A stretch of DNA of 64,000 bases from Asterochloris sp. CNOR1. Its lineage: Eukaryota > Chlorophyta > Trebouxiophyceae > Trebouxiales > Trebouxiaceae. Position 1 is the stretch's first letter; every line of letters starts with the position of its first letter. The translations under genes were made by a program, and so were the position numbers. Below the pieces are notes generated by a model that was given only the letters and a program-made list of their open reading frames with translations, was not told the origin of the DNA and did not search any database. The stretch covers positions 2,852,001 to 2,916,000 of the forward strand of contig OZ017754.1 in assembly GCA_963969365.1 (NCBI GenBank). The letters are read 5' to 3'. This document shows positions 3,139-50,108 of this stretch, piece after piece.

Positions 3139-6100
3139 ATGTTGCGAGACTGGAACGGCAGGATCGCAAGCAGGAGTTTGCCGAGCAAGCCAATGTCCAG
3201 CTCTGATGAAATGCAGCCCCTGCAGAAGGGTACAGAGATGTGTCGTGACTTTCTCAGGAAAGCATGCGCCTATGGAGACTCCTGCAGGTGAATGTCAGCA
3301 GAAACACACTGATCTAGGTTGGCATGATTTGCGCCAAAACTCAATCCGGCAAGCTGCATGTCGCTTGTAGGTTCAGACATGATCTGAAGACCACATCTGG
3401 GAAGATGAGCTCTCTGTCCCTGGAGCGTAGCTGGCGCAAGGTGTGTTCCCTCCCGCTGTCCAGCGGCATCCTGAGTGAATCCAGTGTGTTTGTTCGGGGT
3501 GAGTGGCAGAGGCTGCCCTGCTGTTGCACAGTAGCAACAAAGCTGCCTTGACTTCTGCGCTGACATGGCATTGGCTGCACCCCCCTAATCACTGCCCCCT
3601 GCAGGCAGACTCCCACCCTCGCCAGTCCAACACGGAAAGCGCTGTCAAGCTGCGTGTGATGAATTATAACATCCTTGGTGCAAGTCTGGTGAGCTTTACT
3701 GGAGCACTTGCGCTTAAGCTGTGACTTTGAATTTCACTTTGCCCCAATGTGTGCTGCAAACAAGGCACTAGTCTCCCTATGCAAGTGACAGCCCCGCTTC
3801 GATACTCTTGAAGCCACTCTGACTCTGCCACGACGATCTAACGAAGAGTGTCAATTGGCCGTTGCCTTCCAGTTTCAAGAGCATTCCCAGTCAGAGCTGT
3901 AGCCCAGACTTGTGAGGTGCCGTTGCAAAGACTTGAGCCAATCCTCCTGCAATGCTGCAGGCCTTCATTCGCGGCAAGAGTGGGACCTGACTTATGTATG
4001 GCTTCTTCAGCAGAGCAGCCCTGCTGCAGGCTTTAACGAGGCACCAGTTTGCCTGGTTCTACTGGAACCAGCGGCGTGTCAGGCCCTGGATCACAGATGG
4101 GAACAAAGGCTGTGCCTGCTTCGCTTTTGAGGTTGCTGTGTCTCTGTGCAGGCCATAAGGCATTGGCAGGAGCTGTGCTCGGTGATCACATCGCCAAGAG
4201 CCACAACCAGTCTTTGTTGGTGCAGGCCAGCTAACACTGGCAGGCAGGCAGAGTTTGCTTACATAGCCTGAGCATTGCTGGACTGAGCACCAGCTCTCCG
4301 CAGTCCTGCAATCTGAATGGCATCGACTGCTCTGCTGCAGGCCGTGCAGCTCATCAAGGGGCTGTATTTTTACACTGGCGCTGGCTGGCTGGACGCAAAG
4401 ACCAGCTGTGTGCATGAGCTGCTCCAAGTGATGGTTGCCTGTCTGCTGCAGGCCATGCAGCACAGGCACGAGCTGTATCCTGACACCAACCCTGCCTGGC
4501 TGGATTGGAGCTGGCGGCGCAACAGGATTCTGGACGAAATTACCCACTGGCTGCCTGACATCGCCTGCTTCCAGGAGATGGAGGATGTGCAGCACTTTGT
4601 GGAGGGGCTGGACATGCATGGGTGAGGCCTGTGAGTGGAACGCTTCCTGCTGAAGTGGCACTTTCAGCGCGCAATGAACAGGCAGCAGAAGGCAAGGTCT
4701 GCCCCATCCACGAGCGTGCAGAAGATGGAGGTGCAGGGATCAGCATGTTGCACGGCAGCAACATGGCCAGGTAGATGGAGCTGCGTGCTGAGAGTGCTGT
4801 GGCGCCAGGCAGTGCCCATGCAATGGTCGGCACTCTGTAGAATTCCTGTGCCTAGGATCTTGGCTGACGGCCCAGGGCTGTCCCTGCTTTGTGCAAGGGC
4901 TGGGGGATGCGCCTGCGGGGCTCTAAGCAGAGCCAGTGCCTTCAGCAGCACTGTCGGCAGAGCAGCTTGTCTGCTGCTGCTTTGGCAGGTGCAGCCAACA
5001 GCGTGGCTGCTGTTTGCTGCCAGCAGCTCACAGACCCTTCACAACCTGTGATGGCCTGCAGGTACCAGCGGGAGTACGCCAGCCGGACAGGAGGGCGCAC
5101 TGACGGCTGTGCCGTGTTTTGGTGCGTGCTGCAGTAGTCTGTGTGTATTGGCTGGGCTGTGTACCAGTGCGTGCTGCTGCAGCATGCCTTGTTTGGCTGA
5201 GCTGTGTTATGGTGCGTGCTGCTGCGGCCCACTCCATCTGGGCTTTGCTGTGCGCAACCCCACACACTCCCTTTTGAAGGTGACACTTACCTGCACGCAA
5301 TTGGCACACTATTCAACTAGCTGGGCTTGTACTAAAACCCGCGGCTGCCTGCTCAAAGCTTGTGCTCAGCCCGTTGCGGTGCAGGGCTCTGTCGACCAAA
5401 GAAGTCTATGGACCAGTTGTGCTGCAGGCGGGCCAACAAGCTGAAGGTGCAGGACTGCGAGACCATCCACTTTGCAGAGTATGGCTTGAAGGACAATGTC
5501 GCTCTCTTAGTGCTGCTGCGTCAGCGAGAACGCCGTCCAGGTACACTGCTTAGCTCATGCGGCTCGTGGCACGCAACTTCAAGCTTGGCAGCAGATGCAG
5601 TTGGTGTGGGCAGTTGCGCTGCTGGTGCTGCTGTCAGCACGGCTGCTGCACAGGGAGACTGCTTTGGTAGATGCTGGTAGCATCCGACCATCATCTGGGC
5701 TCACAATGTATGGGTTGTAGGCAATTTGTGCTGCACAGCCAGCTGGCAGTGTGCAGGGCTGTGCAGGGCTCAGCAGCACATACAACAGCATTGCTGTGCG
5801 TGCAGCTCTGATGGGGGTCTCGAACCTAGCTGCCTGGCTGTGCACAAAGAAGGAAGCAGCTGGTTGGACTGTGCAAGACAGCGTAGTGACGCCTGCCAGT
5901 GTGTCTGCCTCTGTTTGCAACGTGCATCACAAGAACTTTTTGTGCTGGTGGGGACGGGCACTGCATGCTACACTTCTGACTCTGGTGGTGTGCCTTGACT
6001 GAGCTGTCTGAGTCTGCAGGGGTGCGCCAGGATCTGGGACCTGGCCTGTTGGTGGCCACCACCCATGTCCTGTTCAACCCCAAGCGGGGCGACATCAAGG

Positions 6101-9100
6101 TGCCACTGCCACGCACAGCCTGCCCTGCGCACCACTTTTCTGCGGTCCTGCATCTGAACTTACACAAATTGGTGCAGCCTGTCACCTACCACCACACATA
6201 CCTGCAGCATGACCTGCTGCTTGCAGCCAGCAGTAAAGGTACAGGATTGCAGGACAGCATAAGGAAGCTCAGGGACTATGTCTGGACCGACAAGTGAATA
6301 CAATGGCACAACTGTCCACCCATGCTGACGCCTGATCATAAAATTCGCCCAAACTTCTGCGGAACGTACTGCTGCGCACCTTTTGTTGAGTACATGCTCC
6401 CCTGAAGTGCAGACGACCCTTGCTGTTGAGCTTGAGATTGCAGCTACTGCTGCAGGTACTCACATGCCAGCCAGCATGTGCAGCTTGTTGGCACGATCAT
6501 GTGGGGCTGTACGCTGATGAGACACTGGGCACCACAAGCAAATATGACTGCCAGACCCCGCCCACAAAAAGACGCATGCTCTGCAGATCGCCCAGCTGCG
6601 CATCACGCTGGAGCGCATGCACAGCCTGGCCCAGCGTTCTGGGGGCCAGGTGTCCTGCCTCCTGACAGGCGACTTCAACGTGACCCCCGCCAGCCCCCTG
6701 TACAGATTCATTTGCGAGGGCAGCTTTGACTGCGACAGTGCAGACCGCCGGTCCCTGTCGGGGCAGGTGGAGCAGACTCGGGCTGAGCGGCGGCGAGCCA
6801 GGGCCGCGCAGGCAGCACTTCAGGTGGGGCTTGCACAGGGCTTGGGGTCTAAAGGCAGCCTGTTCTGGGCACAGTGGAAATCACCAGGGCAACAAATCAG
6901 TTGGCTGTGTCGTGGCTCAGGCAGCAGATAGGTGAGGATGGGGTGGCCGTTGCCCAAGATCATTGCACAAGGCATAGATGTAGAGGAAGGTGTCTTAGGG
7001 GCAATCGCAGCCAGTGCTGGGTCATCAGCAGCAAGCCACAGCAGCGGAGGCGGCAACTCAGAGTTGGGAGTCAGGGCGGCCGCAATGCACACAGGGTGTT
7101 GCAGTAGGGAAGCGAGGTCTGAGGGGTTGGTCTGAGGGCTGCAGCTAGATTGCGGCACCAGGTCTCCGGGGAGCACTTAAGTGGGCTGTCAAGCCAGGCA
7201 GAGTCAAAGGCAAAGCGGCACGCAGTCTGATGCAGACACCGTGGCCAATCCTGCGCTGCTGCAGGCTGCAGACTCTGCAGTCTCTACCAGGGCAACGGCT
7301 GCATACAGTCAGCAGCCGCTACCGCCCCCCCCAAGCCCTAGCCAGCACCTGCGCTTTGACGATGCTGGGCGCCCCTCAGTGGTGCCGCCTGGGACGCAGC
7401 CGCCTCCGCCGCCTGCAAGGCCCTCTGGTGTCAGGTGGGCTTGCCTCCTGTGGAGTCACAAGCCTTCAGACATATCAACATTGCTAGCATCGTTGACACT
7501 GCCCTTGTTTTCTTATGTCTTGGGCAGCCAGGGACACAGCTGCTCCCACCACCTGCAGTGGGAGTGCTCAGCAGCAGTGCCGCCAACTGTATGCTGCACA
7601 TATTCCCAGCCAACATCGGGACAGATGTTGCAGCATAAGTCTGCTGCCACATGCTTCGTCATATGGACTGCATGGCTCTTCAGCAGAAATGCGCGTCATA
7701 CTCTTCTAGGCCGTGTCATTACAGGCATCAGGGCTGCTTCTGTTACAGACGCCACCTCCCACAGCCAGATGTGACTGCGCAATTTCTGTTACTGCTGCAG
7801 CCAGGGGACCCTGCCAGCAGGTGCACAGCGCTCTCTCACCCGTCAGATGTCGCAGCTGCACTCACCTTCTGTTGGGGGCCAGGGGGTATCACCAGGTCAA
7901 CCCATTGACCTGACAGCAGATGACTCGCCCACATCTGAGGGGACGCCGCTGCTGCCAGTCATTGAGGACAGAGCGCCAGTGCTGGGCGTCTCGGCTGGCT
8001 GGCAAAACAGTGTCGCAGCTGGAAGGCAGGAGAGGCCTAGACAGGCGGCAGTGGCAGCCCAGGTACAACTGGATGCGTGCTCAGCCTGGCTCTGCTGGCG
8101 GGCCTCAGTGTGCGCAGGTCAGCAAACTGGGTGGCCAGCCAGAGCTGGGGACGGCAGACTAGGTGCAAGAATGCATGCTCAGTCTAAACCATGCTGGCCG
8201 GGCCTCAGTGTAAGCAGGACAGTAATCCAGGTGGCAAGCTGGAGACAGCAATGGCAGCTCGGCAGTCCTCACACCTTATCTGATTCTGCTACTGCCTGCA
8301 TTCAGGTGCGAATTAAGCAGGAGGGGCTGAGCACACAGGCAGGTGTGGCAGCTGTGAAGCCAGAGTCTGAGGTGCCAGGGCAGGCACGAGGGCAGGCACC
8401 GCAGGGACCTCTCTCAGTGGAGCAGCCAGCCAGGTACCAATGCCAGAAGCCCTGCTTGCAGCCCCACAGCTGCTGCTGCCCAACCTTGCCATGTCGGTGT
8501 GCCTGACCTGACTTGGCATGTTTCTGTATGCGCAGTGTCATGTACAGTGGGTTGCGGCGTCCATCCAGCTCAACATCAGCAGGGATTCTGCTTTAACGCC
8601 CTAAGCCAGTCTGGCACCAGTGCGGTATGGGGGCACCCTGGCAGAGGCAGAAGCACCGCATCCTCACAATGTTCCCATCCATGCATGTGTTACTACAAGC
8701 AGCCTGCCCCTGCCTACAGGCCCCATCAAGCCTTCAGCAGCTTGGCAACATCCTTTGTGCCTTGGATGTTCACGCCTCCATAAATGTTCAAGAAGTCGTT
8801 TATGCCCCTGTCTGCAGGTCACCCATACATGCCCACTCCTCAAATCCTGCTGCACCCTGTAGCACCATGCAACACTTTGACATTTGCCACGCCTTGCCAG
8901 ACACACCTGTCAGTGTATGCAGGCCACCCACCAGGAGCGAGTTCCCGCAGCCTGCTCCAGCCTGGCGCGCCCTAGCAGAGTTCCCGCAGCCTGTGTCTTA
9001 GGCAGCGTGCACCTGCATGCAGGCTGCCCATCAAGAGCGAGTCCCCGCAGCCTGCTGCAGCCTGGGGGGCACCTGCAGGGGCACGGATGCCCCCGCCGCA

Positions 9101-11899
9101 GCCCTCGGCGGCCCTGCTGCAGGCCGCGCGCGTGCAGAGCCCCAGGACGCCCCAGCACGTGCGGCCCCTGCACCTCCAGCAGCCGATCGGGGCGCGGGCG
9201 CATGCTGGCTCCCCCCAGGGCTGGCCTGTGCAGAACGTGAGTGTGCTTGAGATGCGCAGGCCCCAGGGCTGGCCTGTGCAGAACGTGAGTGTCCTCGGGA
9301 TGTGCAGGCCCCTGGCCTGGCCTGCTCAGAGAGGTTCAGCGATGTGAGTGCCGACAATGCGTGGCGGCCCCAGGCCTGACCCTTATTGACAAGGTTGGCT
9401 TGGGGTGTGCGCGCCCCAGGTCTGGCCTGTTCAGGGAACAGACATTCAGCAGTGCGAAAGTCGTCAAGGTGTGCCAGCCCCAGGCCTGACCTTTTGGGAC
9501 GTGATTGAACCTGAGATGTGCAGTCCCCAGGTCTGGAAGTTCTGGAGATATGCAGAAAGGGCAACATGTAGAAAAGGGCAATGTGTGTGGTTGAGTGACT
9601 GTCAGGGTCTCTTGGCGGCTGTCAAATTTGCAGCCTGAAACGCTCAACGTCATCATGCAGACTTTCAACAGCTGCAGCTGGCCTCACAAACCATGTCCTG
9701 CTGACATTGTTTTGCAGCACAGCTGCTGCCAGATTCAGCGACCACCAGCTGCTGTAGTTAACTCTGTCCCGCCCCAGAGTGGCAATGCCCGCACGTCTCA
9801 GTATGCTGGATCTGGGCGCATGTTGTGGGCCAGGCGCAGCCTTGATTGCTGCACAAATGCACTCAGTGGTGCTCTGCGACCTGTAGCCGCCCTACCTGGT
9901 AAACTCGAGTTCCCCGTGGATGACTCCCACCTACCTGCCACCGGCGCGCTACTTTCACTCCCCCGGAGGCGCATCACCCGCTCCAGCGGGTGCAGTCAAC
10001 CCTGCACGGCATGCGTCCCCAGCGGCGACGGCAGCCTACGCCGCAGCATGGCAGCAGCAGCAGGTGTTTGGAACTGTTACCTGCTGCGTTTATGTGGACA
10101 AGTGTCTGAGCAGCTGCCTAGAAGTGACGACCGGCGCCCAATGCAGCTGCTGGGAATGCAGAGAATGGCAGAACAGCGATATTGATCCCCATGTTATTGA
10201 ATTCACACGTGCAGGGTGATCTTCGAGGGATGCGCACGGCTTAAGTTTCTGGGTGTTATGTGTGCAGGTGACAGGGCGATTCTTGCCGTCACCGTCAACA
10301 CAGTGGGGGCCAGCGGGGCAGCACCAGGCCAAGCGGCCGCGGCGGTCGCCAACCATCCAGGTGCGTCTACCAATGTTGCACAAAACCCTCAGGCATGGTC
10401 AATGTGCAGCACGCCAGAGGCTTCCTGTGTGGAGCAGTCAGAGTGCAGGGCTGCTTGCATCGGTGCTGCAATGTAAGTGCTGGCAATGTTGCTGAGGTGC
10501 ACAGGCTGCAACAAAGCTACCATGCAACACGAGACGAGCCTGCTGCCGTCAGTCTGAAGTCAAGCTGTCAGCCACCCTGAACACTGGGCTGCCTCAAGGG
10601 CGGGCTTCTCTGCATGGCACCACACCACAGCAGTGCTGGGCTGCTGAGACCCTGTGTCAGCCCCAGCCTTCAAGAGAAGCTCTGCTTCACCGCAGCCGTC
10701 TATGTTGCCAATTGCATGTTGAGCTAGTCTTCTGAAGCATCTCTGCCTGCCCTTCAACCGTGGGATGACTGCCGTGCCCCTCAGTCCAGCCCCTGCTGGT
10801 GAAGGTGCCATGTACATGGTCACTCCGCCTGCAGCAGATCTGTAAGCGCTGACCTCCAGCCGCCTCTCTGCCTGGTGCTGCCGGCCCCTGCATTGCACAG
10901 CTCCTGCAGCCAAGCTGCCAGCCCGCACTATCCCTGCGGGAACTTTCTGTCTCTGCTGTGCCCCAGCCTGCATAAGGCGGCAAGCCCCTATCCAAACCCT
11001 TTTGATCACCGGCAGTGCAAAGCTTCTGCAGCAAAGCTGCCAGACCTAGTGGCTGCCGCAGGAACGCTCTGTGTCTGCTCTGCCCCAGCCTGCACCAACA
11101 CGTTTCAGGCACCTCTACATTCCCTGCAGTGCTGAGCTCCTGCAGGTGCAATCGGCTGCCTCTGCCCATGCAGGGCTGGGGCGAGAAGAACAGGGCATCG
11201 CAATGGGGCTGGAGCAGCAGCAGGTGGCCACACAGGTGGCGCAGGTGTAAATAAAAATTGCAGAGCTCCCGCAGCTGCAACTGGCTGCCCCTGCCCATGC
11301 AGGGCTGGGATGACGAGAACAGGGGCATTGCAATGGGCCTGGAGCAGCAGCAGGTGGCCACACAGGAGGCGCAGGCCACAGGGCAGCGTGCCTACGTGGT
11401 GTCCCACCCCCTGCAGCTGCGCAGCGCCTACCAGGACTGCATGGGGCGGGAGCCTGAAATCACCTCCTGCCACAACAAGTTCGAGGGCACGGTGGACTAC
11501 ATCTTCTACACCCCCCAGGTGGGGCCACATTGCTGAAGATTGTGGCTGGTGGAGCATTTACTCCAGCTAGAGGTGGTGTAGCGCGCTGTATGCCACCAGT
11601 TTGCTACCACAGGAGCCTGAGGTCACCTCCTGCCGCAACACCTCTGAGGGCATGCTTGGCCACTTATTGAGGCATTGTTGCGTCTGGTCTGGCGCTGTCC
11701 TTCTCGAGTGCCTCTTGTAGTGTACCAGCCTGTTTCAACCAAGCATTCCCCTTGTGCATTGCAGTCTGGTGGCCAGCACCTGGTGCCTCAGAGGGTGTTG
11801 AAGGAGCCCAGGACATCTAAGCTTGAAGCCGGCATACCATCTGAGCATTACCCTTCAGATCACATCTATCTGCTGGCAGACTTTGAGCTGCAGTGGTAA
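3139..11899 (+). CDS. CCCH zinc-finger plus CCR4-type endonuclease/exonuclease/phosphatase deadenylase
   Basis: Supported exons: 3139-3287, 3371-3498, 3609-3688, 4452-4621, 5062-5121, 5428-5540, 6020-6099, 6587-6823, 7265-7434, 7801-8062, 8306-8433, 9887-10063, 10269-10361, 11303-11518, 11765-11899; a Pro/Gln-rich exon near 9079-9236 is less certain. The start could also be the in-frame ATG at 3193. The N-terminus carries a C-x7-C-x5-C-x3-H zinc finger split across exons 1-2. The EEP nuclease domain follows: VMNYNILGASL, LPDIACFQEMED (metal-binding Glu), DGCAVFW, HVLFNPKRGDIK, LLTGDFN (catalytic Asp/Asn) and, after the insert, GTVDYIFY and PSDH (catalytic His). From memory, HVLFNPKRGD is very close to Arabidopsis CCR4 homologues 5/6, cytoplasmic poly(A) deadenylases. 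Exons 7265-10361 encode a disordered Pro/Gln/Ser insert with a SUMO-interaction-like PIDLTADD. The nuclease call is firm. Exon linkage within the insert is the weak part: phases do not close between 8433 and 9887. Confidence 0.85.
5122..5240 (+). repeat. Decayed copies of exon 5 3' end and donor site
   Basis: The deadenylase exon 5062-5121 ends gctgtgccgtgttttg and is followed by the donor gtgcgtgctgcag. Downstream in the intron two similar stretches recur at about 5153-5185 (gctgtgtaccagtgcgtgct) and 5205-5228 (gctgtgttatggtgcgtgct). Spacing is about 45 to 50 bases. They look like tandem copies spanning the exon-intron junction. Confidence 0.6.
8910..9060. repeat. Degenerate tandem repeat in deadenylase gene
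   Basis: Two to three copies of a unit holding atgcaggc, then gagcgagttcccgcagcctgc, recur at about 8918, 8972 and 9018. The segment precedes the Pro/Gln-rich candidate exon at 9079. Function unknown; probably intronic. Confidence 0.5.
9205..9535 (+). repeat. Tandem repeat of about 50-60 bp containing a splice donor
   Basis: At least six degenerate copies of a unit with the core ccccagggctggcctgtgca, most of them followed by gtgagt-like sequence. The first copy coincides with the end of the Pro/Gln-rich candidate exon (donor near 9237). Later copies start near 9262, 9309, 9369, 9413, 9477 and 9522. The repeated block therefore spans an exon end and its donor. Confidence 0.7.
10890..11255 (+). 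repeat. Tandem copies of the region preceding and including exon 11303-11518
   Basis: The segment 11140-11250 is a clear copy of 11265-11375: both hold atgcagggctggg, then gagaacaggg and ctggagcagcagcaggtggc. The second is the real exon start, with acceptor at 11302. The upstream copy would be read out of frame. Two older copies of the flanking part lie near 10893-10980 and 11010-11100. The intron thus carries decayed copies of its downstream exon. Confidence 0.75.
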
Positions 11900-12144: not shown

Positions 12145-15100
12145 CTAATTGTCAAAGTCAACACGACCCTTGACAGAGAAGTTTCTGCGCGCCTGGTCTG
12201 AGAGGCCCTTGCGCTCAGCGCTGTGCCTGGGAGGTCTGACGTTGCCATGGCGCACTCTGCCATTGCCATTGCTGTGAGCTGCATCATGATCCCTGGCTCT
12301 GCGCTTCATAGGGTCCAGCTGAGCTTCGTCCATGCTGCTCACACTCTTCACCCAAATGCCCACATCACGCAGCGCCCCGGAGTACTCGCTGAATGTGGTG
12401 GAACGTGCCAGCTTCTGCAGTGCAGCGGCACAGACCAATCAGCAGGCTCAGAACATGGCCACTCCACAGCAAGGCCCACGCAGGTCTGGCTGCCAGCTGG
12501 GTGATGCACAGCCGCCACACGTCGACGGTCTCAATGGATGATGGGCTGTGCATCAACATCAAGAGGGCAGCAGGGTTACCACAGGGCCACCAGTGAGCTA
12601 GCCCCAGACAAGTCTGGCTGCCAGCTTGTGTTTGGACAGCTGCCACGTGTGCTCGGCCTCAAGCAACCTGGCTGCAATCTGCTGCATGCACAACTGGTGA
12701 TTGCTGCATGCAGGTGTGGCTCCCTGCTGCAATCTGCTCCTCACAGCTGGCCTCACACAGGTCTGACAGCAGCTGCCATGCGCACAAATGGGCTGGCCCC
12801 ACACAACGTCGGCTGCCAGCCACCATGCCTCACACTACTGGCTGCAGGTTGCTGCACCCACCGGCTTACTACCGGCCTACAAACACTGCTCAACAGCCCT
12901 TCAGCCTCTCCTGAGCTAGTGGAGCAGGACAAACAACAGGTATGCCAGTCACTGAGCTGTGCTGACACTGTGACATGCTGGCAGGCTGCCAACTGAGAGA
13001 GCAGGACAGATGACTGCATCACCGTACACCAGCAGCTTGTTCTGCTACTGTGACAAGCCTGTCCACTGAGGCTGCCTACTTGGAGGAGGGGAACAAATGC
13101 TCAACCACCGCTCACCCGCAGCTTGCGCTGGTACTCAGACAAGGCTGGCAGGGGGCCATACTCGATAGGCATCAGACGAGTGCGCCTGCTCTTAGCCACT
13201 CTGACGTGCTCAGGGTCCAGGAGGTCCATTGTGTCGATCAGCAGCTGCTGCATGAGCAGCGTACGGGTCCAGCGCCTGCCAGCAGGAAGATGGACCGGTC
13301 AACACTCAATGACCACTTGTAGGAGCACAGCAATGGCACAGGGCACCCATAAGTTGCAACGTGATGCTTCCCTGCAACACTTGGCATCTGCTGCAACATC
13401 AGTGTGCGGTTCAGTGACTGCCAGCCGTAGACAAGAAGCGAATGACTGACTGCAAGCCTCAAAAGCCAAGCTGTGGAGATGCAGGGGTCCAAGGCCATCC
13501 AGGGTGAGTCTGCCCTTTCAGTCTTTATATATATTTGTTGGAGTACATGTGAGCCAGCCTGAGCACTTGGTCTTGAAGCAGGCCTGTGCCAGATGCAGCA
13601 TTTTGCAGATACCTACCATCACTGGCTGTTGCTTGCAGCAAGCTTGCAGAGCAGCAGCTCAGTCTGGCAGTAACAGGTTCCCTGCCTCCATGTAAGCGCT
13701 TGGTAAACCCTCCCCCTCCAAACCCTAACACCAAGCAGCTTACATGACTGGGAAGGGCCCCTGCCCCTTCCAGGCCTCGCCCTTGACCAGCTCAGTGATG
13801 TCTGAGTGCAGTCCATGCAGCCACTTGGCAAAGTCTGGCTCGCCCTTGTAGCGGACGCAGAAGTCAGAGTAGCTGGCTGTGTAGTGGCGGTCGGCGCCCA
13901 GTGGGGTTATGATCATGTGGGCCCCTACCGCTCGCTGGCCTCCGCGTGAAACCCTCAAAAGGTCGTCTGCCCTGCAGCCACAGCATGTTGTGGCAAGATG
14001 AGTACCACTCAATTGAGTCAACCCCCAAAGATTCAAAAGGAGTGATGACATGATATGCAGGGGAGTTCAGCAGTCAGACTGCCAGCAGTTGCTAGGGGCT
14101 GCTCGTCTGCGCTGTGGCCAGATTGCCATGTGATGCAAATAGCAAGTTGCTGGGAACTTGGGCGGACCCTGCGGAGGGCTGGGCGAGGGCTTGTGGTCAT
14201 GCTCAGCACTGCATGCTGTGCCGCCTGCAGAATTTGCAAGATCAGCATCTTGAGGCTGTCCAGACCACACCAGGTGGGCTGTCAGACCCCCCTGCTGCAC
14301 CTGTGCTGGTCATGTTGCGTGACCCATCTGGAGCACCTGCAGTCATCCCTGTTGACATTGCAAGACCAGGCTGTTGCGCCGTAGCAGACTGCAGCCACCC
14401 CTGTTGGCACTGCCAGACCATTCCAGTGAGCCGGGGCAGGCCGCAGGCACCCCTGTTGGCACTGCCAGACTCAGGCTGGTCAGCTGTGGCGGACCAACTC
14501 CTGACTTCTGCAGCTCACTTGATCTCGTGGGCCTTGATGGGCGTCCAGTCAATCAGCTCGTCCCCAGAGCGTCGCGAACGGCTGCCTGGGTGGTCGCGGT
14601 ACCCATCCTCCACATCGCCCCAGTCCTGCAGACACACAGACTCTGTCTTGGGACTACACCTTCAGTCTTGCCAATGGCTGCCACAAGTGCCTTGCGGAGC
14701 ATCTGTCACACCATGCGGTACCGCTCCACACCGCCCAGTGCTGCATATCATTCTACATAAAGCTCAGCCCTGCATGCACAGATGGGTTTTTGTTGACGCT
14801 CTATACACTTCCGCACCACATGTTGGGGTGGCAAGTCATCTCAGTCCTGCAGGCACGCATGCAGGTTTCGTGAAGCTTAGTCTAGTCTCGCACGCACGTG
14901 ACCAGACCCACAAGGAGTGCCTGTTCAAAGTGTCCAATCCTGCAGGCAGCACCACAGCATGCTCCCTGCAGCTTGCCTTTGGTGCTGGCGGCCCACATTG
15001 CTTGGGACAGCAGACCCATGCAACTTGCCAAGGGCAGCTGCATGACTGGCAATGCTTCTGTGGGTGCTGTAGCCAAGCACACTGTCAACTCAGGCTGAGG

Positions 15101-17866: not shown

Positions 17867-18338
17867 GATGCAGGCACGTAGATGAGCTTCTTGGCCTGCT
17901 GCCTCAGCTGCACATCTGACCGTCAGCCAAACACGCCGGGCCATGGACAGACTGTGTCTGGATTTACCTGGGTACAGCTGGCATCTTATGCCAGGCTGGT
18001 TGGGCAATGCGCGTGAGGCTCGTCGTGACTCCCAACTGCCTCCCCGGAACCATCAGTGGCCTTGCAACCGGGCTGAAGTTCGTTATTAGCATGACTGCTG
18101 ATGAGAGATCAATTAAGGCTCCAACTCCTATTGGAAGGCATCACCTCCGACATGCCGCGGCCAGACACCACCTGCAGCCTCATTGCTACCAGCATGAAGA
18201 AGCCCTACATGGCATTTTGTCTTCTGTCTGCCAGACTTTCTTCAAGCTCGCGTCGACCTGCAGATTGAGTGACTCAATCTCTACATTCAAGTTTTGTGAG
18301 CTTCCTGTTCCCTAGACTGCTCTGCGGCTATCGCAAGC
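17867..18338. promoter_or_regulatory. Divergent promoter region
   Basis: 472 bases separate the start codons of the minus-strand membrane-protein gene and the plus-strand IQM gene. Both promoters must lie here or overlap the first exons. I see no obvious TATA box or named element. Confidence 0.45.
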
Positions 18339-34693: not shown

Positions 34694-34844
34694 ATACCCC
34701 TCTGCCCTCAGAAAGGGTACCAGGTGCAGCTGTTGACTTGTTGTAGTCATAAGATGTATCATGAAAGTTCTGCTGGGGATGGCTTCTGTTGGCAACTTGA
34801 AACACTGCCTCTGTTTTTATGTCCGCCAATAAGTTTTGTGCATC

Positions 34845-39798: not shown

Positions 39799-42700
39799 AT
39801 GCCTGCAGGCGCTGTGCTTTGTAGGGATGTCACAGCCAACAGCATTTGCGCACAGCAGGCAGCCACCAGGGTAAGCGCCGGGACACGCGGCAGGAGCGTC
39901 GACAGCTCTAGTGTCGTGCCTACAGCCGGTCTGAGACTGCTAGCACAGGCAGATCCGCCCAGAACAGGCAGCGGGCGAAAGGGGCGCCCCCAGAACATGC
40001 AGCAGGAGCCCTCACAGCGCTCGTCTGTCCTGCAGCCTGCTGGTGTGACGCAGCGAGCAGTGTCCGTGCACAGGCCGCTGCAGAGGTACTGCCACAGCAC
40101 TTGCAGCAGAAGGCCCTACAGCTCCCATGTTGTGTCTGCAGGCTGCGGGTACGGCGGCGAGCAGCGTCTGCTCACAGCTGCCAGCAGAGTGACCACCACA
40201 GGAGGTGCAGCAGGAGCCCTTGCAGTTGAAAGCCAGCCAGCAGCGCTGCACAGCCATGGTGTTCACCATGCCTGTGCACAATGATGGCATCAGTCTGACG
40301 AGGGAGGCTTGCCGCCCCCGCAACATCAAGGTGGCGGCCTCCTGCCCGCCATCCATGCAGCGGGAGGGTCTCTGGTGAGCATATCATCGGCCATGCTCTA
40401 GTACCACCAGCGGTCTGGTGATGGAGTCCATGCGGCGCCCGTGCAGCCCTGCCCTCCATGGAGCAGGAGGGCTCTGGTAGGCATCTTACCGGCTGTACAT
40501 CAGTGTGTGCAGCAGAAGCAGCTGGGTAGTGGAGGTCGTCTGGTGCACATACAGCCCGCCCTTTATGCAGCGGAAGGGGCTCTGGGGAGTGCTGTGCAGC
40601 GCTAGGCAGCCTGCCTACAGGCCATTGCATGCAGCGGGAGGCGCTCAAGGGAGCGCTGAGCAGCACTAGGCAGTCTGCCCCTGCGTCAGTACATGCAGCG
40701 GGAGGGGCTCTGGGGAGCACTGTGCCATACTAGGCAGCCTGCCTCTGCAACAGTGCATGCAGCAGGAGGGACTCTGGTGAGTCGTCTGCTGCCTGGCAGC
40801 GTGCACTCTGCCTCTGTACCATGGCTTCTGCCTCTGCACCACTTTACACGGCAACATTGCTCTGCTGTGCCACCTGCTGCCTATCACTTTGCCTCCGCAC
40901 CTATGGACACAGCAGGAGGGGCTCTGGTAAGCTGCCTGCTGCCTAGCAGCACAAAGACTGCCTCTGCACCTGAGAACACAGCAGGAGGGGCTCAAGCAAG
41001 CAGTCCGCTGCCTAGCACCATGCAGTCTGCCTCAGCATGAGTGCTGACGTGCTCCATGCAGCGGGAGGAGCTCTAGCATGCTGCCTGCAGCAGCAGCATT
41101 TAGTCCCTATTCATGTGCATCCAACCAGAGGCCACCGTAGAGGGTCTGGCCTCCTGCATCCTGCCAGCCTGCAGCTTCTGGCTGGTCCTACAGGCGCGTG
41201 TAGATTCTAAAATACACCTGCCAAAGGGTGGGCACAAACTTCTTTCCAAGCAGCAACACTTCATGGCCTGCAGGCGTGTCGAGGACTTTGAGCTGCACAA
41301 GCAGTTGTACAAGGGCAAGGCCAGCCTGCTGTACAGCGCGACCTGCAAGCGCACCGGGATCCCAATTGCTCTCAAGCTCTACCGCAAGGGGCGCCTCTCT
41401 GAGCTGAACTGGCACCAGGCAAGCCCAAACCAAGGATTCTGGCCTCTCTGCCTCTGACTGTCAGCGCACAATAGCCTGCACTGGTGATCTGTGAATGCAG
41501 GCGGTGGCTCTGCTGCACTGATCCTGATTTCTGAACATACAATGTAGGGCCAGGTCAGGCATGGGCTGCAGGGTGCCCGGAACTGACAGATGCCTGCCTT
41601 GGCAAGCTTCTCAGAGCCGATCTAGTGCAGTGCAACTGCATGAATGTGCGCTCACTGTCTTAGCTGCACAGGCGGCCTGTAAGGGGCAGGCCAGCCCTCC
41701 TGGATACCTCTTGAGGTATTGGCTCTGGGCAAAGCATGTGTGGTAGCTGCATAACGGCTGCACATCACAAGTCATGCATTGCCCACTTGCTGCTCCCATC
41801 TTGTTGCTGTTTGGCTGTGTTCAGCTGCAGGATGCTGTTGCCAGCTGCTGGAGTGTATGACTTGGCTGCACAGCCGCCTGCAGCCCATAGCTGAGCGGCA
41901 AGATTTGGCTTTTGCAGCACGACATCTTGGTGTCTGCAGCACAACATATTGTCCAGCAGGCCAAGTTGGTGCCAGCCTCTCCTGCTGGTCCGAGTTGTCT
42001 TGTTGGGCTCACCTGTGAGGTGCTGCTGACTGCAGGTTGAGCGTGAGATCCGGCTGCACAGCTGCCTGCAGCATGATAGCATCATCTCGCTGTACGCGGC
42101 CTTTGAGGATGACCAGCACGTCTACCTGGCGCAGGAGTTTGCCTCAGGTGAGAACGCCTCACAGAGACTGGCGCTGAGCCTAGTAAAACCGGTAAGCTAG
42201 GCACATGAATCGTCAGCTAGACACATCAAAGGTGAGCTAGACACGTGAAGTCCATCAGTTGGTGCTGTCAAGGAGGGGCTGGTGCAGGCGCTGGCTTCTG
42301 GTCAGGCTGTGATCCATGGAGGTGCTGCTGCTGGATGATGGCTTACTCTCAACCTGCAGCTGCTTTTGCTATGAGCAGCCCATACTGTACAGTCTGCAGT
42401 TCCAGGCACCCCCTGGAGCACCTGTGCACACTCAGCTGCTCTTGCAGACTGGTGTGGTGTTCACACTTTGCTCATCAACAGGGGCACCCTTTACAATGAA
42501 TCTAAGCGCAGCGTGATCTGTAATGCATGCCTGCTGCAGCTGCTCCCTGTTCTGTAACAGCCCAATGCCAATGCTGTGCTCTGCATGGGCACACCAGGAC
42601 ATGAGCCTACAGCCAGCTGAGGTCCAGAACGCCTGTATGACATGGGAAGACCTGTACAAAGAGCATAAGCTCCATGCCCAGGGGCTGAGGCGCCCGCGTG

Positions 42701-45700
42701 CATGCAGCTTGTGTCATCCAGCCGACAAGCTGCTGCTGTGCCCTGCACGGGGTGATATGTTGCAATGTTGGCGCAGTCTCAGCACCTTACCCGCCCAATG
42801 GGTGCTGCAGCATGACAATCTGCATGTCTCCTGTGCTGCACAGGGGGCGACCTGTATGAGGAGCTCAAGCGCAGCGGGGGCCAGATGAAGGAGAAGCGCA
42901 CCTCGAGGGACGTGCTGCAGCCATGCCTCTCTGCTCTGGCCTACCTGCACACCAAGGTGTGCCGTAGTTGCATGTGCTGACCTGGTGGGTGCAGCAAGTG
43001 ACAGAATTTCCGCCTGTTCGGCCACTGGCCAATCTTTATACCAAGGCGTGCCATCACTGCTTGTGCTGGCTCAGCGGGCGCAGCAAGAGGGAAAGACAGA
43101 CTGCCTGTCCGCCGTGTACCCAGCACATGCATGCGCTGACCTGGCGAGTGCTGCAAGATAGAGAGAGCGTCTGCCTGAGGGCGATGCAGGGCATCATTCA
43201 CCGTGACATCAAGCCGGAGAACATCCTGCTGACGGCAGACAAGGCTGTGAAGCTGGCAGACTTCGGGCTGTCCATCGATGCCAGTGAGGAGCGTCCAGTG
43301 ACGCGTGCGGGCACGCTTGACTACATGGCCCCCGAGGTGGGGTCCAGGCAGGGTTCTGTGCTTCCAGGCCATGACCGTCATTGTGGTCGGCAGGCATGAG
43401 GGCATGCTGGGCTGCACGACACGCAAGGCACGTGAAGGCTGCGGTCGTCTGTACTCCCAGGCCATCGGCTTACGACAATGGGCAGGGCGCCACTCTCCTT
43501 TTGGGGCTCAAGGGGCGCCTGCCTTGGCCTGTGACGTGGGTACGCTAAAGTACAGTGGCGCCTGAGGTACCTCAAGGGCTGGGATCTGCCCTTGTTGCTC
43601 TCTTGGTCCACAAGCAGGCGGGGAGCTAGGGCGTAAGGGCGGGGTGAATGTGTACCCATACTTGCACGACTTTGAGTTTGAATGAGTGGGTCGAAATCTT
43701 CAGTCTTGAGCAAACAGCTTGTTGCCTGTGTTCTGTTGGTGGGCTGGCATGCTGGACCACATGGCGCAAAACGTGGGGGGCAGGCCACACATTGTGTCTG
43801 CATGTTGTTAGTGTCTGGCCATGCACCTGAGACACTGGGAGACAACATTGATGGTGAAACCCATGCAGGACCACTTCTGTGCAAACGGAAACAAGCCCCC
43901 TCTGCGGCTTAGCCAGATATGCCCACTCTCTTGCAGGTTGCGGTGTGCCTACATGGAATTCCACCTGTGTGCTCCACATCAGGCCTGCCTAGACTCATCT
44001 GCTCCCTCCTTGCTGGTGTGTCCAAGAACCACCACCCATGTGCTCTGCATCAGGTGTTCTAAATCCACTTTGGCCCCTCCCCTGCAGGTGCTGGTTTGCC
44101 CCGAGAAGAGCCATCCCCGGGAGAACAAGGACAAGGTCTTGCTGGGCTACACCAACATGGTGGATGCTTGGGCGATGGGCATCCTCGCCTTTGAGCTCAT
44201 TGTTGGGCATCCGCCCTTTGAGAAGGAAAGTCGGGCGGCCACCTACGAGCACATCATGTACCGCAAGCCCTCCTTTCCAGCCTGGATGACAGATGAGGCA
44301 CGCGACTTCATCATGACAGCCCTCACCAAGGTAGGGCAGGGTGTTGCCCAAAGGGCAGGTGATGGCTGTGTTGCTGGGGGATGGAGAAGGCTGATTAAAG
44401 CTGGCCTTTGAGCTGTAATCAAGGTGAAGGAGACAGACATCTGACCACCTTACACAAAGCATGCTGACGCACAGAGGCAAGTGTGCTGCTTGTGTTTCTG
44501 CAATGGACAATCTGCCTTGGACCCTTCAACAGCTGCACACCACTAGCACAGCAGTGGGAGAGCAGTGGGGGACCTGTTGGGCTCTTAATGTAAAATCTCT
44601 CAACCCCATCTGCAAGCGGAGGACCTCACTTTCCCTGCAGGCTGCCCGGAAGCGGCCGGCAGTGGGAGACCTGTTGGGGCACCCCTGGATCGCGCTGCAC
44701 CAGAAGCGGGCGGCACCCGTGGTGGACGTGGGACGGGGATCCTCGTGCGACATGGCCTCTCTGGGGAGTGTCGGGTCTGACATGTCCACTGGCACGGCGG
44801 CGCCCGCTGACGCCCTCAGGTGAGCTCTTCCTGCCTGGCCCTGGGGACACACTGGGGCCTCTGCTTCAAGCTGCCCTCTCTTGCTTTCACCCCTCAACCC
44901 TATCTTTTTGTGGGTGCTCTCCATGCCTGCCTGCCTGCAGTTAAGTCTGGGCGTTGCAAGGTGCTCACAGCTGCTGCCTCTGCACCGCAACTAGGTGTCA
45001 CAACTGGTCGGCCACTCCAAGCAATCACACAGGCACTGGTCATGGCCCCACAAAGGCTTCTTTGCAGCACTGCTCATTCGCCGGTGGGAGGTATCATCAA
45101 CAGCCCCGGAGGAGGCACCACAGAGCTGCCAGCCTCAAGCCACAGCAGCACTGGTCTCTAAGAAGGACAGTCAGTCTGACCCCACCCTCAATCCTCGGCA
45201 TGCAGAGCAGCAGCCCTTCCAACAGGTGCTCCTCTTCCTGGGTGCAGGGTCAGTGCCGCCAGCAGCAGCCTGCAGGGAGAGGCGGCGCGCACGTCGGGGG
45301 CGAGCATGACATCCACGCAGGCCGTGCCGGCGGCGGCTGGGAGCCCCTTCAGTGGGGCAGCCATGCGCCCCTCAGGGGCCAGCACCTCCATGAGGGGCAG
45401 CACTGTGTCCAGCATCGGGAGGAACAGCAGCGAGGCATCCAAGGTGAGCATGGCTTCCAGGCAAGTTGTGCCGGCGGCTGCCAGCCCCTTTCAGTAGCGG
45501 GGCAGCCATGCGCCCCTTCAGGGGCCAGCACGTCCACGAGGGCCAGCACTGTGTCCCGCACTGGGATGAGATGAACAGCAGCGAGATGTGCAAGGTGGGT
45601 TTGACCTGCCAGGACTTTCCAGGGAAGCTCCTGACAAGATGTTACTCTGTGTATAGCAACGTCTACAGCATTAGAGGGAGGATCAGCAGGGGGGCGTCCA

Positions 45701-48700
45701 AAATGGCTCAGACCTGGCAGCTTTAGGGTTGGTCCTGGCAGGGGATCAGCATTTGATCCTGGCAGGGCTGTTTCATCACAGGTGGACAGCAGCAGGGCCG
45801 TATCAGGACATGTTGACCAGACATGGCGCGCAGGATCTGCTGAGAGTGCCCTGATGCTGCACGTCAGGTGAGTGCCCTGCAAGCAGGCAACAATCTTGGC
45901 ATAATGAAGGGCAGCCAATGGCGCCGATGCATGCCCCACATGCCACCTCAGCCCCGCAGGAGGACGGCAGCACTACAGGCAGCGAGGCAGCAGGTCGGGT
46001 GCAGGCCCGTACGCTTGGAGGCAGGCAGAAAGAAGGAAAACGGCAGCCTGCCCAGACACTGATGCATGTCTCATACCGCACCTGGGCGCCACAGGAGGAC
46101 AGCGGCAATGCAAGCAGTGCTGCAGCATGGCGGGTGCACAGCCTTCTGCACCAAGGGCAGGCAACTCCAAAACTGGACCACATGGGTGGCCTGCCCACAC
46201 CTGGATGCATGTCTCACACACACATGGGTCACACACCGCCCCTGACATCCGCAACCCGCGCCCTGTAGGAGGGCGGCAAGGGGGACAGCGAGGGCGGCCT
46301 GTCTACCATGATGTCCTGGTCATCCAGCATTCGTAATGGCGTCATGAAACTGCTCAGCAGCAGTGGGTCCTCTAAAACCCTGGGCGCCTCGGCCGACCAA
46401 GCGATGGCAGCAGCCAATGAGGAGCAGCAGCGGGCGGGGGCAGGTGGGGCAACCTAGGTCAATCACTCCTCAGCAGCTGCTGAGGCAGGCAGTGTCAGCA
46501 TGCTCCAGCAGCAGGGGAAGGCTGATGTTGTGTGACTGCCTAGCTTTGCAGCGCGGCATTTGTCTGGCCCCACGTCGCCAGCAGGGGCTGTTCGTGTGCC
46601 TGCTGACACTGCCTGCTTGGGCTCCGCTGCAGGGGCCAGGCAGCTGGCCCATACTGGCAGCAGAGGGTTGTTTCTTCTGTCTACTGACTCTGGCAGCTTG
46701 GGCTCTGCTGCAGGGGACAGGCAGCTGGCCCACACCGGCAGCGTGCGTGTTGGCGGCCAGGACAGCGCCTCGTCCCTGCACAAGTGGCCGATCTCCCACG
46801 CCAGCAGCGCGGGGGCCGAGCAGCTGTCCGCAGCCAGCCGGGCGGCACGGCGGGAGCAGGCAGCCCTGGGGCAGAAGGCACGACGGGGGGCCCTGGACAA
46901 CCCGCAGAGCATGGCGGCAGCGGCTGCAGCCAAGGCGGCGGCCCGCAACGCGGCAGCTCAGCTCGAGCGCTCAGCCATCTCCAGCTCGGCGAGCGCGGCC
47001 CACGGGGAGCCAGCCATGTCAGCCGGAGGCCAGGGCTTTGCAGCGGGTGCAGGCTCGCGTGTCAGCAGCGGCGGGCAAGGCGGCAGCGGACGAAGATCCC
47101 CGAGCGGTAGCGGAGCGCATCACAGCCCTGGGGGGCGCACCGCCAGCGACGCGCCCTCGCCTGTGGTCGAGAGCGGGCCCGGCAGCTTCTCGCGGCCAGG
47201 CATGGTGCCGCCCATGATCAACACAGCCAACCTGTCGCCCAGGTGAGCAACACAGAGCAACACAGGGCCATGCACACTGATGGCAACGATTCATGCGATT
47301 ACCCATGGTGCCCCATGTCAGCTGAGTGCCCAGGTGAGGAAGGAGGACCAAGGCAGACGGATCCTGCGCTTCTTGCAGGCAGGCATGATGGTCCCAGTTA
47401 CCACAGCTGGCCTGCTGCCCGGGTAAGGGAGGAGGGGCAATGCAGACTGATCCCCGCCCAATCAGCCAAGCTCACGGTGCTTCACTATGGCCAGCCTGCT
47501 GCCCGGCTGAGGGGCAATGCTTTGTGGCTCCTGGGGTTCTTACTCTGCAGGTGCAGCTCTTCCTCACCTGTGCTGTCAGGCTTGCACATCCAGCCGCTGT
47601 CAGCAGGAGCAGCAGAGAGCTCTACGGTTGCATCTGCAGGGTGTCCTCGGTTAGAGTCTGCTGCAGGAGCAGCCTGCAAACGCCCAACTCAGCAGCCATC
47701 CTGTCGCATCTTCATCTCGGTGCCTTGCTGCTGTGTCAGTGGCTGTGAACTCCTCACAGTCTTGTGTGTCTCTCTGCATGCACTGACCCTGCCGCTGCCC
47801 AACTTTCTGCTCCCATGAAAGTGGGTCCCCCAGGCGCAATCTGGCTGCTGGCAGCCAGCAGCTGCAAGCCACTGTCTGCATTCACCCTTGCCCTGCTGCA
47901 GGGTTACGCGGACCACGGCCTCCCCGGAGAGCGCCTCCCCTGCGCGGTTGTCTGCCTCTGAGCAGGCGGCAGCAGCCGGGGTTCCCAGCGGCCTGGCGAG
48001 GCTGAATGTGCAGCCGTCAGCTGCTCCAGGCGGGGCGGAAAGGACCTCGCCTGGGTCGCCAGACTCTGTGTCCAGCCTGCCAAGCCCCTTCGCCAATGTG
48101 TCGCCACGTGCGGGCCGCATGGCTCAGCCCCTGTCACGGCGGCGGGCCATGCAGGGCACAGGTGGGCTGCCGCAATGACACAATGATGGCTGGCGTGATT
48201 CTCATGGGGCATCCCTTCCCCGTGGAGTGCATCTGCAGGAGGAACCCCCAAGGCCTTCTCATACTGCAGCATATGCTCTTGCTGTGCCATTTCAAAGCTG
48301 TGCCCAGCTGTCCAGCTCATGGCTGCGTCTGGAGGCTTGCAGTCAACAACCAAGGCCAAGCACCTGTAGCTGCGGTCATTGCAGTTTCTCAGCCTCCTGC
48401 ACTGTGCTGCCTGCAGGTCAGGCCAGCAGCAGCAACCTGGGGGACACTGCCGTCATCTCCACCGCTGGCAGCTACAGCCCCTCCACCTCCCGGCTGAATC
48501 TTGTGTCGGGGCAGCACAGCACCACCTCTGCCCTGGGCTGCGCAGGGCGCCGCAATTCTGTGCAGGTGGGCTGCACTTCCTGTTGTCATCAGCAGGTGGC
48601 ACGTCTGCCCCCTGTTGACTCAGCCGGATTGTCCCCTTGCCATGCACGGCTGGCTTGGCGTCGCAACTCTGTAAAGGTAGGCCACCCTCTCTGTTCAGAG

Positions 48701-50108
48701 CTCGCCTGGCTGTCTGGTTGTTGAGCACGGCTGGCGCCGCAACTCTGTGCAGCTCGATCACCCATTCTCTATCTAGCCAGCTGGGCTGTCCACATGCCAA
48801 GCACTGCTGGCTGATTGCAACTCTGTGAAGGTGGATCATTCCCTCTCTGTTGACCAAGCTGAGCCGTCCACCTCTCAAACACTGCTAGAGGGGCGGAGCA
48901 CCTCTGTGCAGGGTTGTCATTCGCTCTCTGTTGAGCCAGCCATGCTGCATGCTTAAGCACTGCTGGCTGGCGTTGTGAGTCTGCCTTCAGCCAGGCCACT
49001 TTCCCCTTTTGAGCCTGTTGGACTGCCTGATTGCGTACGCATCCCTTGGCCCAAGGGTGATTGCTTTTGGCTCACAGCCCTCGCAGCTCACCGTGTGCGC
49101 CTGTGCCTGTGCAGATGCCTGATCATGCCCTGGAGGAGTTGTCGGGGTCGGTGGCCCCTCTGGGGATTGAAGCCACCCGGAGCAAGAGCGTGGTGCTCCC
49201 CAGCAGCATCGCAGATGCGGGGGTCAGGGCTGTGCATGGTGAGCAGCACCGACAATCGCCAGCAATCGGCTGACACCAAGGTCATCAATCTTAGCGGACC
49301 CTCTGCGGATGATGCTGCAGCTCTGCATCGTTCACGTCTGTACCGTCCCCTCTGTTTGTGAGCGCCCTCTCTCAGCTGGCTCTCAATGATTGCTTGGCTG
49401 GCAGAGCACCATCTCAGCATCTCGATCAGGCCATCTGAATGGTGCACGACTACACTTATCGCCGCCATCACGCAGTCAGCCAAGAGCACACCCTCGCCCG
49501 ACCCACAACTCCAGAGGTGGTGCTGCACGCAGCCCAGTGCATGCGCCAGGGGTATTGAGCAACAGCCATGGAATGTTTGATGTACCCAGTGTCTACAAGA
49601 CAGCTGCAGGCGCCGTCAGCAATGCAGTTGTTGGGGACAGCTGTCTGCCTCATGTGGTGCTGTCTGCTGCACCAGCTCGTTCCTCAGCCCTGACAGCACG
49701 CCAGACAGGCTGGTGTGCACGACCTCGCCCACCCCTGCAATGGCTCAGGCCGATGTTGATGGGGCCTTAGGGGCAGACAAAGATCGATTTGGAATGCTCG
49801 GGGTCATGGTCAGTGGTGATGCACATGCATCACAGGTGCACTGCCATTCACTGTGGAGCTGCACCCATTTCAGATGGCTGAAAGCTTACAGCCACCATGG
49901 TGCCTGTGGGCATGGCGGTGCAGTTCAGGTACGCCTGGTGTGCTGCTGCTGCAGGGGCCCCTGGGGGGAGCGGGAAAGCGCTGAAGCCCAGCAGGATGTC
50001 ATCCCAGGGCCTGTTTGCCATGGGTGTCATGCAGGTGAGGGCCCGTTTGCCATGGATGCAATGCAGCTGATATGACTTTTGTTGCAGGAGGAGGAGTCCC
50101 GTGTCTGA
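39799..50108 (+). CDS. Aurora-like serine/threonine protein kinase with long disordered tail
   Basis: Fifteen exons: 39799-40085, 41274-41418, 42036-42147, 42844-42956, 43190-43336, 44088-44330, 44641-44819, 45248-45443, 46269-46443, 46714-47242, 47902-48161, 48417-48565, 49115-49238, 49955-50034, 50088-50108. Total 2760 nt gives 919 residues with phase closure. The start is the first ATG in the open first exon and may lie further upstream. The kinase domain (about 97-400) has a degenerate glycine loop [12 protein letters not shown], Lys in IALKLY, Glu in [18 protein letters not shown] in KLADFGLS and MAPEV, so it should be active. From memory it is closest to the Chlamydomonas Aurora-like kinase CALK, which acts in flagellar length control and disassembly. 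The C-terminal 500 residues are Ser/Ala/Gly-rich with one coiled stretch (near [16 protein letters not shown]). The intron at 41419 has a GC donor (CAG|GCAAGC). The domain call is firm; orthology to CALK is inferred. Confidence 0.88.
40340..41095. repeat. Degenerate minisatellite, about 65 bp unit, 9-10 copies
   Basis: In the first kinase intron a unit with the core atgcagcgggaggggctctg and then gcagcctgcctctgca recurs near 40353, 40456, 40567, 40630, 40692, 40757, 40907, 40974 and 41055. Spacing is mostly 62 to 75 bases with some longer gaps. There is no continuous reading frame. Confidence 0.8.
42465..42700 (+). repeat. Decayed copies of kinase exon 4 5' end and acceptor
   Basis: Exon 42844-42956 begins acag|ggggcgacctgtatgagg, then ctcaagcgcagcg. 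Upstream in the same intron similar blocks lie near 42476-42515 (acaggggcaccctttacaat, then ctaagcgcagcg) and 42643-42675 (gaagacctgtacaaagagca). Confidence 0.65.
42940..43185 (+). repeat. Tandem copies spanning the donor of kinase exon 4
   Basis: The exon end cctgcacaccaag|gtgtgcc and the following intron head recur near 43036 (tttataccaaggcgtgcc), each copy followed by a tgctgacctggtgggtgcag-like block (43041-43085 and 43125-43160). The unit is about 80 to 90 bases, with about three copies of the downstream part. Confidence 0.7.
43525..43575 (+). repeat. Decayed copy of kinase exon 5 3' end
   Basis: The block gtgacgtgggtacgctaaag, then gcgcctgaggtac, mirrors the true exon end at 43300-43340 (gtgacgcgtgcgggcacgct, then gcccccgaggtgg). 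It lies 230 bases downstream, in the intron. Confidence 0.55.
44000..44087 (+). repeat. Decayed copy of kinase exon 6 5' end
   Basis: The block tccttgctggtgtgtccaag near 44006 resembles the true exon start cctgcaggtgctggtttgcc at 44081-44100. A further weaker copy lies near 43934. Confidence 0.4.
44545..44625 (+). repeat. Decayed copy of kinase exon 7 5' part
   Basis: The block gcagtgggggacctgttggg near 44562 copies the exon stretch gcagtgggagacctgttggg at 44659-44680. The copies are about 98 bases apart. Confidence 0.7.
45444..45600 (+). repeat. Tandem copy of most of kinase exon 8
   Basis: The exon part 45305-45443 is followed directly by a copy of about 154 bases. Shared blocks are gtgccggcggcggctg, ggcagccatgcgcccc, ggggccagcac and aacagcagcga, then ccaaggtg. 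The copy has small length changes that break its frame, so it is not usable as coding exon. Confidence 0.85.
46528..46713 (+). repeat. Tandem copies of kinase exon 10 5' end and acceptor
   Basis: The true exon start ctgctgcag|gggacaggcagctggc (46708-46729) is preceded by a close copy at 46624-46650 (ctgctgcaggggccaggcag) in a unit of about 85 to 90 bases. A weaker third copy lies near 46540-46600. Confidence 0.8.
48566..48995 (+). repeat. Four to five copies of the donor junction of kinase exon 12
   Basis: Exon 48417-48565 ends gcgccgcaattctgtgcag|gtgggc. In the intron the stretch gctggcgccgcaactctgtg recurs near 48649, 48731, 48808 and 48892, with a remnant near 48963. Each is followed by a new gt site and by a ctctctgtt block, at a period of about 80 to 90 bases. 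This is the clearest junction-spanning array in the window. Confidence 0.85.

Follow-up and report, generated by a model that had tools for sequence, protein, structure and literature searches.

Decayed copies of exon ends in Asterochloris introns are probably remnants of small tandem duplications

Exon-end copies in the window

The window is the whole stretch of DNA analysed, 64,000 nucleotides at C9:2852001-2916000 (contig OZ017754.1), in a genome of 56.38 Mb with 21 contigs and a G+C content of 57%. For the lichen alga Asterochloris glomerata, the cited parts of the published description give a genome of 56 Mb with 56-62% G+C over 98% of its length, nine introns per gene and a large low-G+C virus insertion (PMC6652019). 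Four proteins predicted in the window have Pfam support: a deadenylase-like protein (PF03372), CPN60 (PF00118), an AIG1-like protein (PF04750, FAR-17a/AIG1) and a kinase (PF00069). The scan was run on an earlier model set, from which the later models differ slightly. The CPN60 match to PF00118 spans profile positions 1-488 of 490, and the IQM-like protein gave no Pfam match at E 0.001. Additionally, a Maf-like gene (PF02545) lies on the minus strand at 58590-61560; it was fused with a neighbouring kinase in an earlier model and is separate in a later one.

Introns in the window hold copies of the ends of adjacent exons. On the plus strand, the end of the deadenylase-like exon 5062-5121 is copied together with its donor at +45 and +90 in the next intron (5062-5228), with HSPs of 73% for 5105-5183 at +45 and 89% for 5105-5132 at +90. 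A copy (78%) of the tail of predicted exon 9079-9284 stands at 9477-9536 in intron 9285-10267; the end of this exon is uncertain (9236 in another model), and the exon holds a 48-nt tandem repeat (TRF 9213-9324). The tail of exon 11303-11518 recurs at 11575-11668 (73%) in predicted intron 11519-11764, and that of the IQM-like exon 18914-18997 at 19066-19104 (84%) in intron 18998-19496. An earlier sequence-only reading of this DNA had counted up to six copies in one intron, and the array at 40354-41082 (family D2) bears this out. Here the end of the kinase first exon and its donor recur six times in intron 40375-41273, with 40354-40374 found again at 40564, 40628, 40692, 40756, 40906 and 41055 (75-93% identity); this first exon is an ab initio prediction only. 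Further along the same strand, a copy (88%, ~140 nt) of the tail of exon 45248-45443 nearly abuts its parent exon (45455-45594). Exon 46714-47242 is copied at both ends: its head at 46633-46671 (84%), through a duplication across the acceptor (HSP 46591-46661, +81, 85%), and its tail at 47350-47420 (76%) in intron 47243-47901. Lastly, the end of exon 48417-48565 is followed by decayed copies at about 48663, 48739, 48817 and 48898 (48546-48940; families D4 and D7).

Similar copies lie on the minus strand. The tail of exon 13116-13275 recurs at 12955-13018 (80%) in intron 12415-13115, in a gene that the sequence-only reading had not listed, and the tail of exon 16692-16842 at 16468-16511 (75%) in intron 16324-16691. 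Two CPN60 exons, 30538-30663 and 31663-31795, have copies of their tails at 30396-30444 (80%, intron 30158-30537) and 31500-31577 (81%, intron 31344-31662), respectively. The donor junction of the AIG1-like exon 35779-36009 is copied at 35573-35615 (88%, 43 nt), and this repeat (35573-35615 / 35750-35792) spans the junction with 14 nt of exon and 29 nt of intron.

The youngest-looking repeat in the window is of another kind, a 129-nt duplication at 11130-11375 with 85-94% identity and a length divisible by three. It surrounds a deadenylase-like exon start and both copies are called as exons, so that it may be a coding duplication.

To quantify these repeats, we compared the window with itself, a procedure that needs no gene model. 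There were 0.56 ungapped matches (score of at least 18) per diagonal at offsets of 100-150 nt compared with at most 0.001 at 5-30 kb, and short direct repeats were in excess at offsets of ~50-300 nt. With gene models, the interval from 5 to 49 kb yielded 19 junction copies in 19 of 65 predicted introns (score of at least 18) against 0-4 in ten permutations, which bears out the earlier observation that exon-end sequence recurs in adjacent introns. These copies fall in the deadenylase-like gene (3), the minus-strand gene at 12145-18195 (3), the IQM-like gene (2), CPN60 (4) and the kinase (7). Thus, four of the five genes originally named carry copies at this score, as does one unlisted gene, whereas the AIG1-like gene does not.

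Sample and gene models

Beyond the window, we sampled eight chaperonin gene regions (L039-L046), eight regions at arbitrary positions (L047-L054), seven kinase loci (L002-L008) and three later hold-out regions (L055-L057). Chaperonin matches at C1:585-590 kb, C2:3998-4002 kb and C5:2605 kb are not among the eight regions taken, and L009-L038, which lie around chaperonin matches, were not analysed separately. Gene models came from our own two-strand ab initio finder, which was first trained on chaperonin exon matches and used no RNA. In the finder output, with no Pfam scan, the main predicted proteins of the eight chaperonin regions are 510-656 aa long. Predicted exons have a median length of 126 nt, and predicted splice sites in these models show a strong overall consensus, CAG/GTGAG for the donor and CTGCAG/G for the acceptor (slash at the splice junction). 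Predicted genes below 110 aa were left out of intron tests (120 aa in one run; 100 aa for labelling), together with introns or exon pieces shorter than the test in question required and junction pairs with an alignment ending more than 15 nt from the junction.

Two sequences stand apart. L053 (C15:1000001-1010000) has a lowered G+C content of 0.52 and is poor in CTGCAG words (1.4 per kb), and by eye its predicted proteins look viral, with what we take to be origin-binding-like and BRO-like proteins. It is perhaps a large-virus insert, like that published for Asterochloris, and was excluded from the intron and repeat counts of the main sample. L001, a contig of 43 kb (C19), encodes a kinase domain within one uninterrupted frame of 713 aa; kinase matches elsewhere run exon by exon. 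It is perhaps a foreign contig and was excluded from all counts.

Exon-end copies across the genome

Short-range repeats are in excess well beyond the window. Of 24 sequences, counting the window and L053, 23 had more matches at 25-400 nt than in a distant control, at 0.1-1.9 per kb compared with at most 0.09, some of these figures resting on one match; L008 had none.

To measure which parts of a gene are copied, we aligned 40-nt segments, omitting the 3 nt at the junction, to their own intron (score of at least 14) and, as a control, to introns of other genes trimmed to equal length. This junction test covered 341 introns from the window (88) and from 22 sampled places outside it (253). The exon tail was copied in its own intron in 40 of 297 cases (13.5%; control 1.0%) and the exon head in 39 of 298 (13.1%; control 1.2%). 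Segments deeper in the exon gave 7/216 and 9/221 (controls 1.2% and 1.5%), a drop that is consistent with tandem duplication. Intron edges gave 17/275 and 18/275 (controls 1.5% and 1.4%), and the intron middle 18/173 (control 2.3%). Outside the window only, tails were copied in 29/231 cases and heads in 31/228, and the three hold-out regions gave 4/36 for tails, 7/36 for heads, and 1/29 and 1/30 for deeper exon. Base composition and splice consensus are ruled out as the cause by the junction-trimmed segments and by the use of other genes' introns as control. Exon-end copies in introns are thus confirmed as real, and the phenomenon is not peculiar to the window. The proposal that it extends across the genome is upheld by a frequency of 13% in own introns against ~1% in other genes' introns over the window and the 22 sampled places, with which the hold-out regions agree.

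Orientation, position and intron length

The copies are mostly direct and lie close to their source, as for tandem genomic duplication. At the same cut-off and in the same 129.5 kb, we found 7 inverted matches at 25-400 nt and ~156 direct ones; ~1 inverted match was predicted from a 1-3 kb control. Copying in both orientations is disfavoured by this small number of local inverted matches. The quartiles of the offset were 124/163/221 nt, and in introns of at least 400 nt, 48 of 53 copies lay in the 40% of the intron nearest their own junction, at a median distance of 132 nt. The reach into the exon is concentrated at the junction, with quartiles of 49/66/82 nt (67 pairs) compared with the exon median of 126 nt, which falls short of whole-exon copying with both splice sites. 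Among repeats of at least 50 nt, the median ratio of repeat length to offset was 0.58. A head-to-tail arrangement with a unit equal to the offset is clear at, for example, 46591 (+81) and 45455, and is obscured or absent elsewhere. Repeats joining exon and intron outnumber those within introns by a ratio of 1.18; exon-exon repeats numbered ten in the main sample and seven in the hold-out regions.

Exon-end copies become more frequent as introns get longer: the share of introns with one goes from 0 of 34 at 100-200 nt through 15.2% of 79, 26.2% of 65 and 39.7% of 73 to 52.6% of 57 at 600 nt or more, with sampled controls of 1.2-3.8%. In total, 88 of 308 tested introns carry a copy, and their median length is 517 nt compared with 333.5 nt for the 220 that do not. 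Because the share climbs with length, these data support the suggestion that the copies lengthen introns; longer introns also give more room for a match, which the control covers in part.

Age and origin of the copies

Young copies are nearly absent. Among 151 repeats of at least 30 nt in 222 kb, none exceeded 95% identity and two lay at 90-95%, and in the hold-out regions 0 of 21 reached 90%. Neither set, therefore, contains the near-identical young units of a minisatellite-like expansion. In contrast, two steady-state simulations placed 79 of 165 and 57 of 108 repeats at 90% identity or above. The process had been described as ongoing; in our sample it is not visibly active. Collapsed assembly as the reason for the missing young copies is ruled out, since the deficit also covers 85-95% identity. 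Duplication appears to have all but ceased at roughly 0.1-0.2 substitutions per site before the present, a time scale converted arithmetically from simulation settings.

We consider it probable that most copies are fossils of small (~50-200 nt) tandem duplications inside genes. Where a duplication of this size spans a donor or an acceptor, splicing, we infer, could continue at the original site, which lies on the outside. The added exon end and splice site would then become intron sequence and decay neutrally, and the intron would gain one unit length per duplication. With the parent exon conserved, the exon half of the unit would diverge on one side and the intron half on both. The pattern observed is indeed one of one-sided decay, which makes exon ends conspicuous: their parent is conserved, whereas in the intron part both halves of the repeat decay. 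On this reading, junctions seem favoured mostly as a matter of visibility, the exon half being compared with a conserved parent.

To explore this model, we simulated uniform tandem duplication with exons nearly constant and introns free to mutate, using hand-set parameters. At steady state, the simulation overproduced intron-edge copies and, by a wide margin, young copies. When duplication was stopped before the present, the seven class fractions approached those observed, with a best chi-square of 6.0 among twelve settings (median unit length 60 nt, stop at 0.14). An older stop (0.3 simulation units, ~0.22 substitutions per site) reproduced the identity spread, the gap rate and GT/AG retention, and also yielded the drop in similarity past the junction and the near-absence of intron-flank similarity. 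No single setting fits all observations. Older-stop runs gave 0.10-0.50 repeats per kb against 0.84 observed, and 0.01-0.05 for intron edges and middle against 0.06-0.10, while younger-stop runs gave a flank similarity of 0.31-0.36 against 0.07. These opposing misfits make a spread of ages likely. The exon-intron to intron-intron ratio was 0.64, 0.91, 1.12 and 3.28 in four settings, against the observed value given above. A special preference for junctions had been raised by the steady-state misfit in the ratio of exon-end to intron-edge copies and by the sharp stop at the junction; stopping duplication before the present removed most, not all, of the need for it.

That sharp stop would also be expected if a copying process that distinguishes exon from intron, coupled to transcription or splicing, placed partial exon ends into the adjacent intron without their flank, which we judge distinctly unlikely. 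On the exon side of the junction similarity is ~0.7, and 11-20 nt into the intron it is down to ~0.35. Flank similarity in the intron is hardly higher than in the control (p ≤0.05 for 12 of 100 pairs), and three copies that rank among the most similar (in L039, L003 and L046; 88-92%) are without it. However, plain tandem duplication with one-sided decay and an older stop gives a near-identical profile. Among 95 repeats that have one exon arm, 74 come within 6 nt of the junction compared with about half in simulation, but 34 extend past it by at least 8 nt, and copies remain on the side of the intron next to their own exon. Repeats are scarce in intergenic DNA, with 2 in 21.7 kb against ~11.5 predicted from the intron density (79 in 148.5 kb); the stretches counted include untranslated regions and promoters, however, and selection may explain their poverty. 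In its widest form, introns would have been largely built in a past pulse of intron-restricted exon-end copying tied to transcription or splicing and since silenced. We hold this to be unlikely; if true, exon ends would be fixed reference clocks that date intron growth genome-wide.

The lack of near-identical copies (0/151 above 95%) could also arise in an ongoing process if error-prone birth or rapid hypermutation made copies 15-25% different from the start. With looser gap costs, the three codon positions of parent and copy indeed differ about equally (0.231, 0.217, 0.235). With stricter gaps, however, the mismatch in 70 pairs is 0.279 at 4-fold sites and 0.189 at codon position 2, the pattern that an old, neutrally evolving copy of an exon under constraint would show. 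The silent sites of the exon have thus drifted since copying, indicating that the copies are old and were not born damaged. Additionally, no single substitution type dominates, and we regard damaged birth as very unlikely.

An artefact of gene prediction or assembly is still less probable. The models are ab initio and several window exons, such as the first kinase exon and 9079-9284, are unsupported, but the repeat excess does not depend on gene models, and junction copies also occur in introns of the chaperonin regions and the hold-out regions. Mis-joined reads, which the sequence-only reading had raised as a possible source, are unlikely since exons look intact: none of 397 predicted exons has an in-frame stop, although the finder itself disallows them and the models do contain stops across two splice joins.

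Splice sites inside introns

The copies had also been thought to supply spare splice sites. In 380 introns, strong donor-like sites numbered 240 in sense and 228 in antisense orientation (88 and 82 at a stricter cut-off), showing no excess, whereas acceptor-like sites showed a modest one (258 and 198; stricter, 93 and 64), which leaves this claim weak. That spare splice sites or regulatory exon mimics are kept by selection is highly improbable: the acceptor excess fits, but donors have none, and splice dinucleotides are kept in copies at 0.59, the top of the range of neutral older-stop runs (0.49-0.59). Thus, there is no clear sign that copied splice sites are preserved.

Across the window and L002-L054, with L053 excluded, introns and intergenic DNA contain ~10x as many CTGCAG and related CTG/CAG words as base composition predicts, and exons ~7x as many. 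In the same sequences, TGCAGG and its complement are about equally common in introns.

Implications

Overall, our data support the sequence-only reading in that the copies are widespread, tied to intron length and beyond chance or composition, and do not support ongoing formation or intron birth by AGGT duplication (below). The decay of intron sequence obscures how introns lengthen when no mobile elements are inserted. Conserved exon ends reveal intron material that is otherwise too worn, making duplication-driven intron growth countable and roughly datable. The findings also suggest a tolerance of numerous copied splice sites. Any annotated genome is open to the comparison of own introns with those of other genes, and should related algae share the copies at equal depth, this would amount to a dated episode of growth in introns.

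Comparison with known systems

Introners, which according to the cited part of one report occur mainly in fast-evolving lineages such as green algae (PMC9860276), resemble the present copies in that both are repeated intron sequences of algae. Introner copies are dispersed over numerous genes, however, whereas two repeat-rich stretches here, one of them the 40354-41082 array, each gave a single self-match in a DNA search that skips very common words. Dispersed elements are ruled out for these two stretches by the absence of a second genome match. Tandem exon duplication, as outlined in the material cited on Exonize (PMC12343006), likewise leaves exon-like copies in introns; unlike it, the copies here are partial, with a median exon reach of 66 nt, and focused on junctions.

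The AGGT (Rogers) model of intron creation, exemplified by vertebrate ATP2A1 (Hellsten 2011, as cited in PMC4974935), shares with our observations a tandem duplication that involves splice-site sequence. As presented there, it predicts that an intron starts like the head of the downstream exon and ends like the tail of the upstream exon, and the arrangement here is the opposite. In an ungapped in-register test, 0 of 308 introns showed the AGGT signature at 55% or more, and mean identities of 0.256 and 0.253 equalled those of permutations. This rules out intron creation by the AGGT route, an established idea that the sequence-only reading had cited, within the reach of that test.

A further close system is tandem duplication within genes. 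The cited portions of PMC3443670 and PMC4974935 treat tandem genomic duplication as an accepted route to intron gain and describe internal gene duplication as common (Gao & Lynch 2009, as cited). The likeness lies in small direct duplications within a gene that cover exon and intron sequence, and the portion of the potato RdRp paper used here mentions a tandem duplication of 83 bp within an intron, with no effect on the structure (PMC4974935). As far as the cited portions go, this literature centres on intron gain and multiplication, whereas here existing introns seem to grow, and the copies are decayed and present in 88 of the 308 tested introns. A search of open-licence literature found no report of exon-end copies at comparable density. 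Within the reach of that search, three features look new: decayed junction copies are dense, they are linked to intron length, and young ones are absent.
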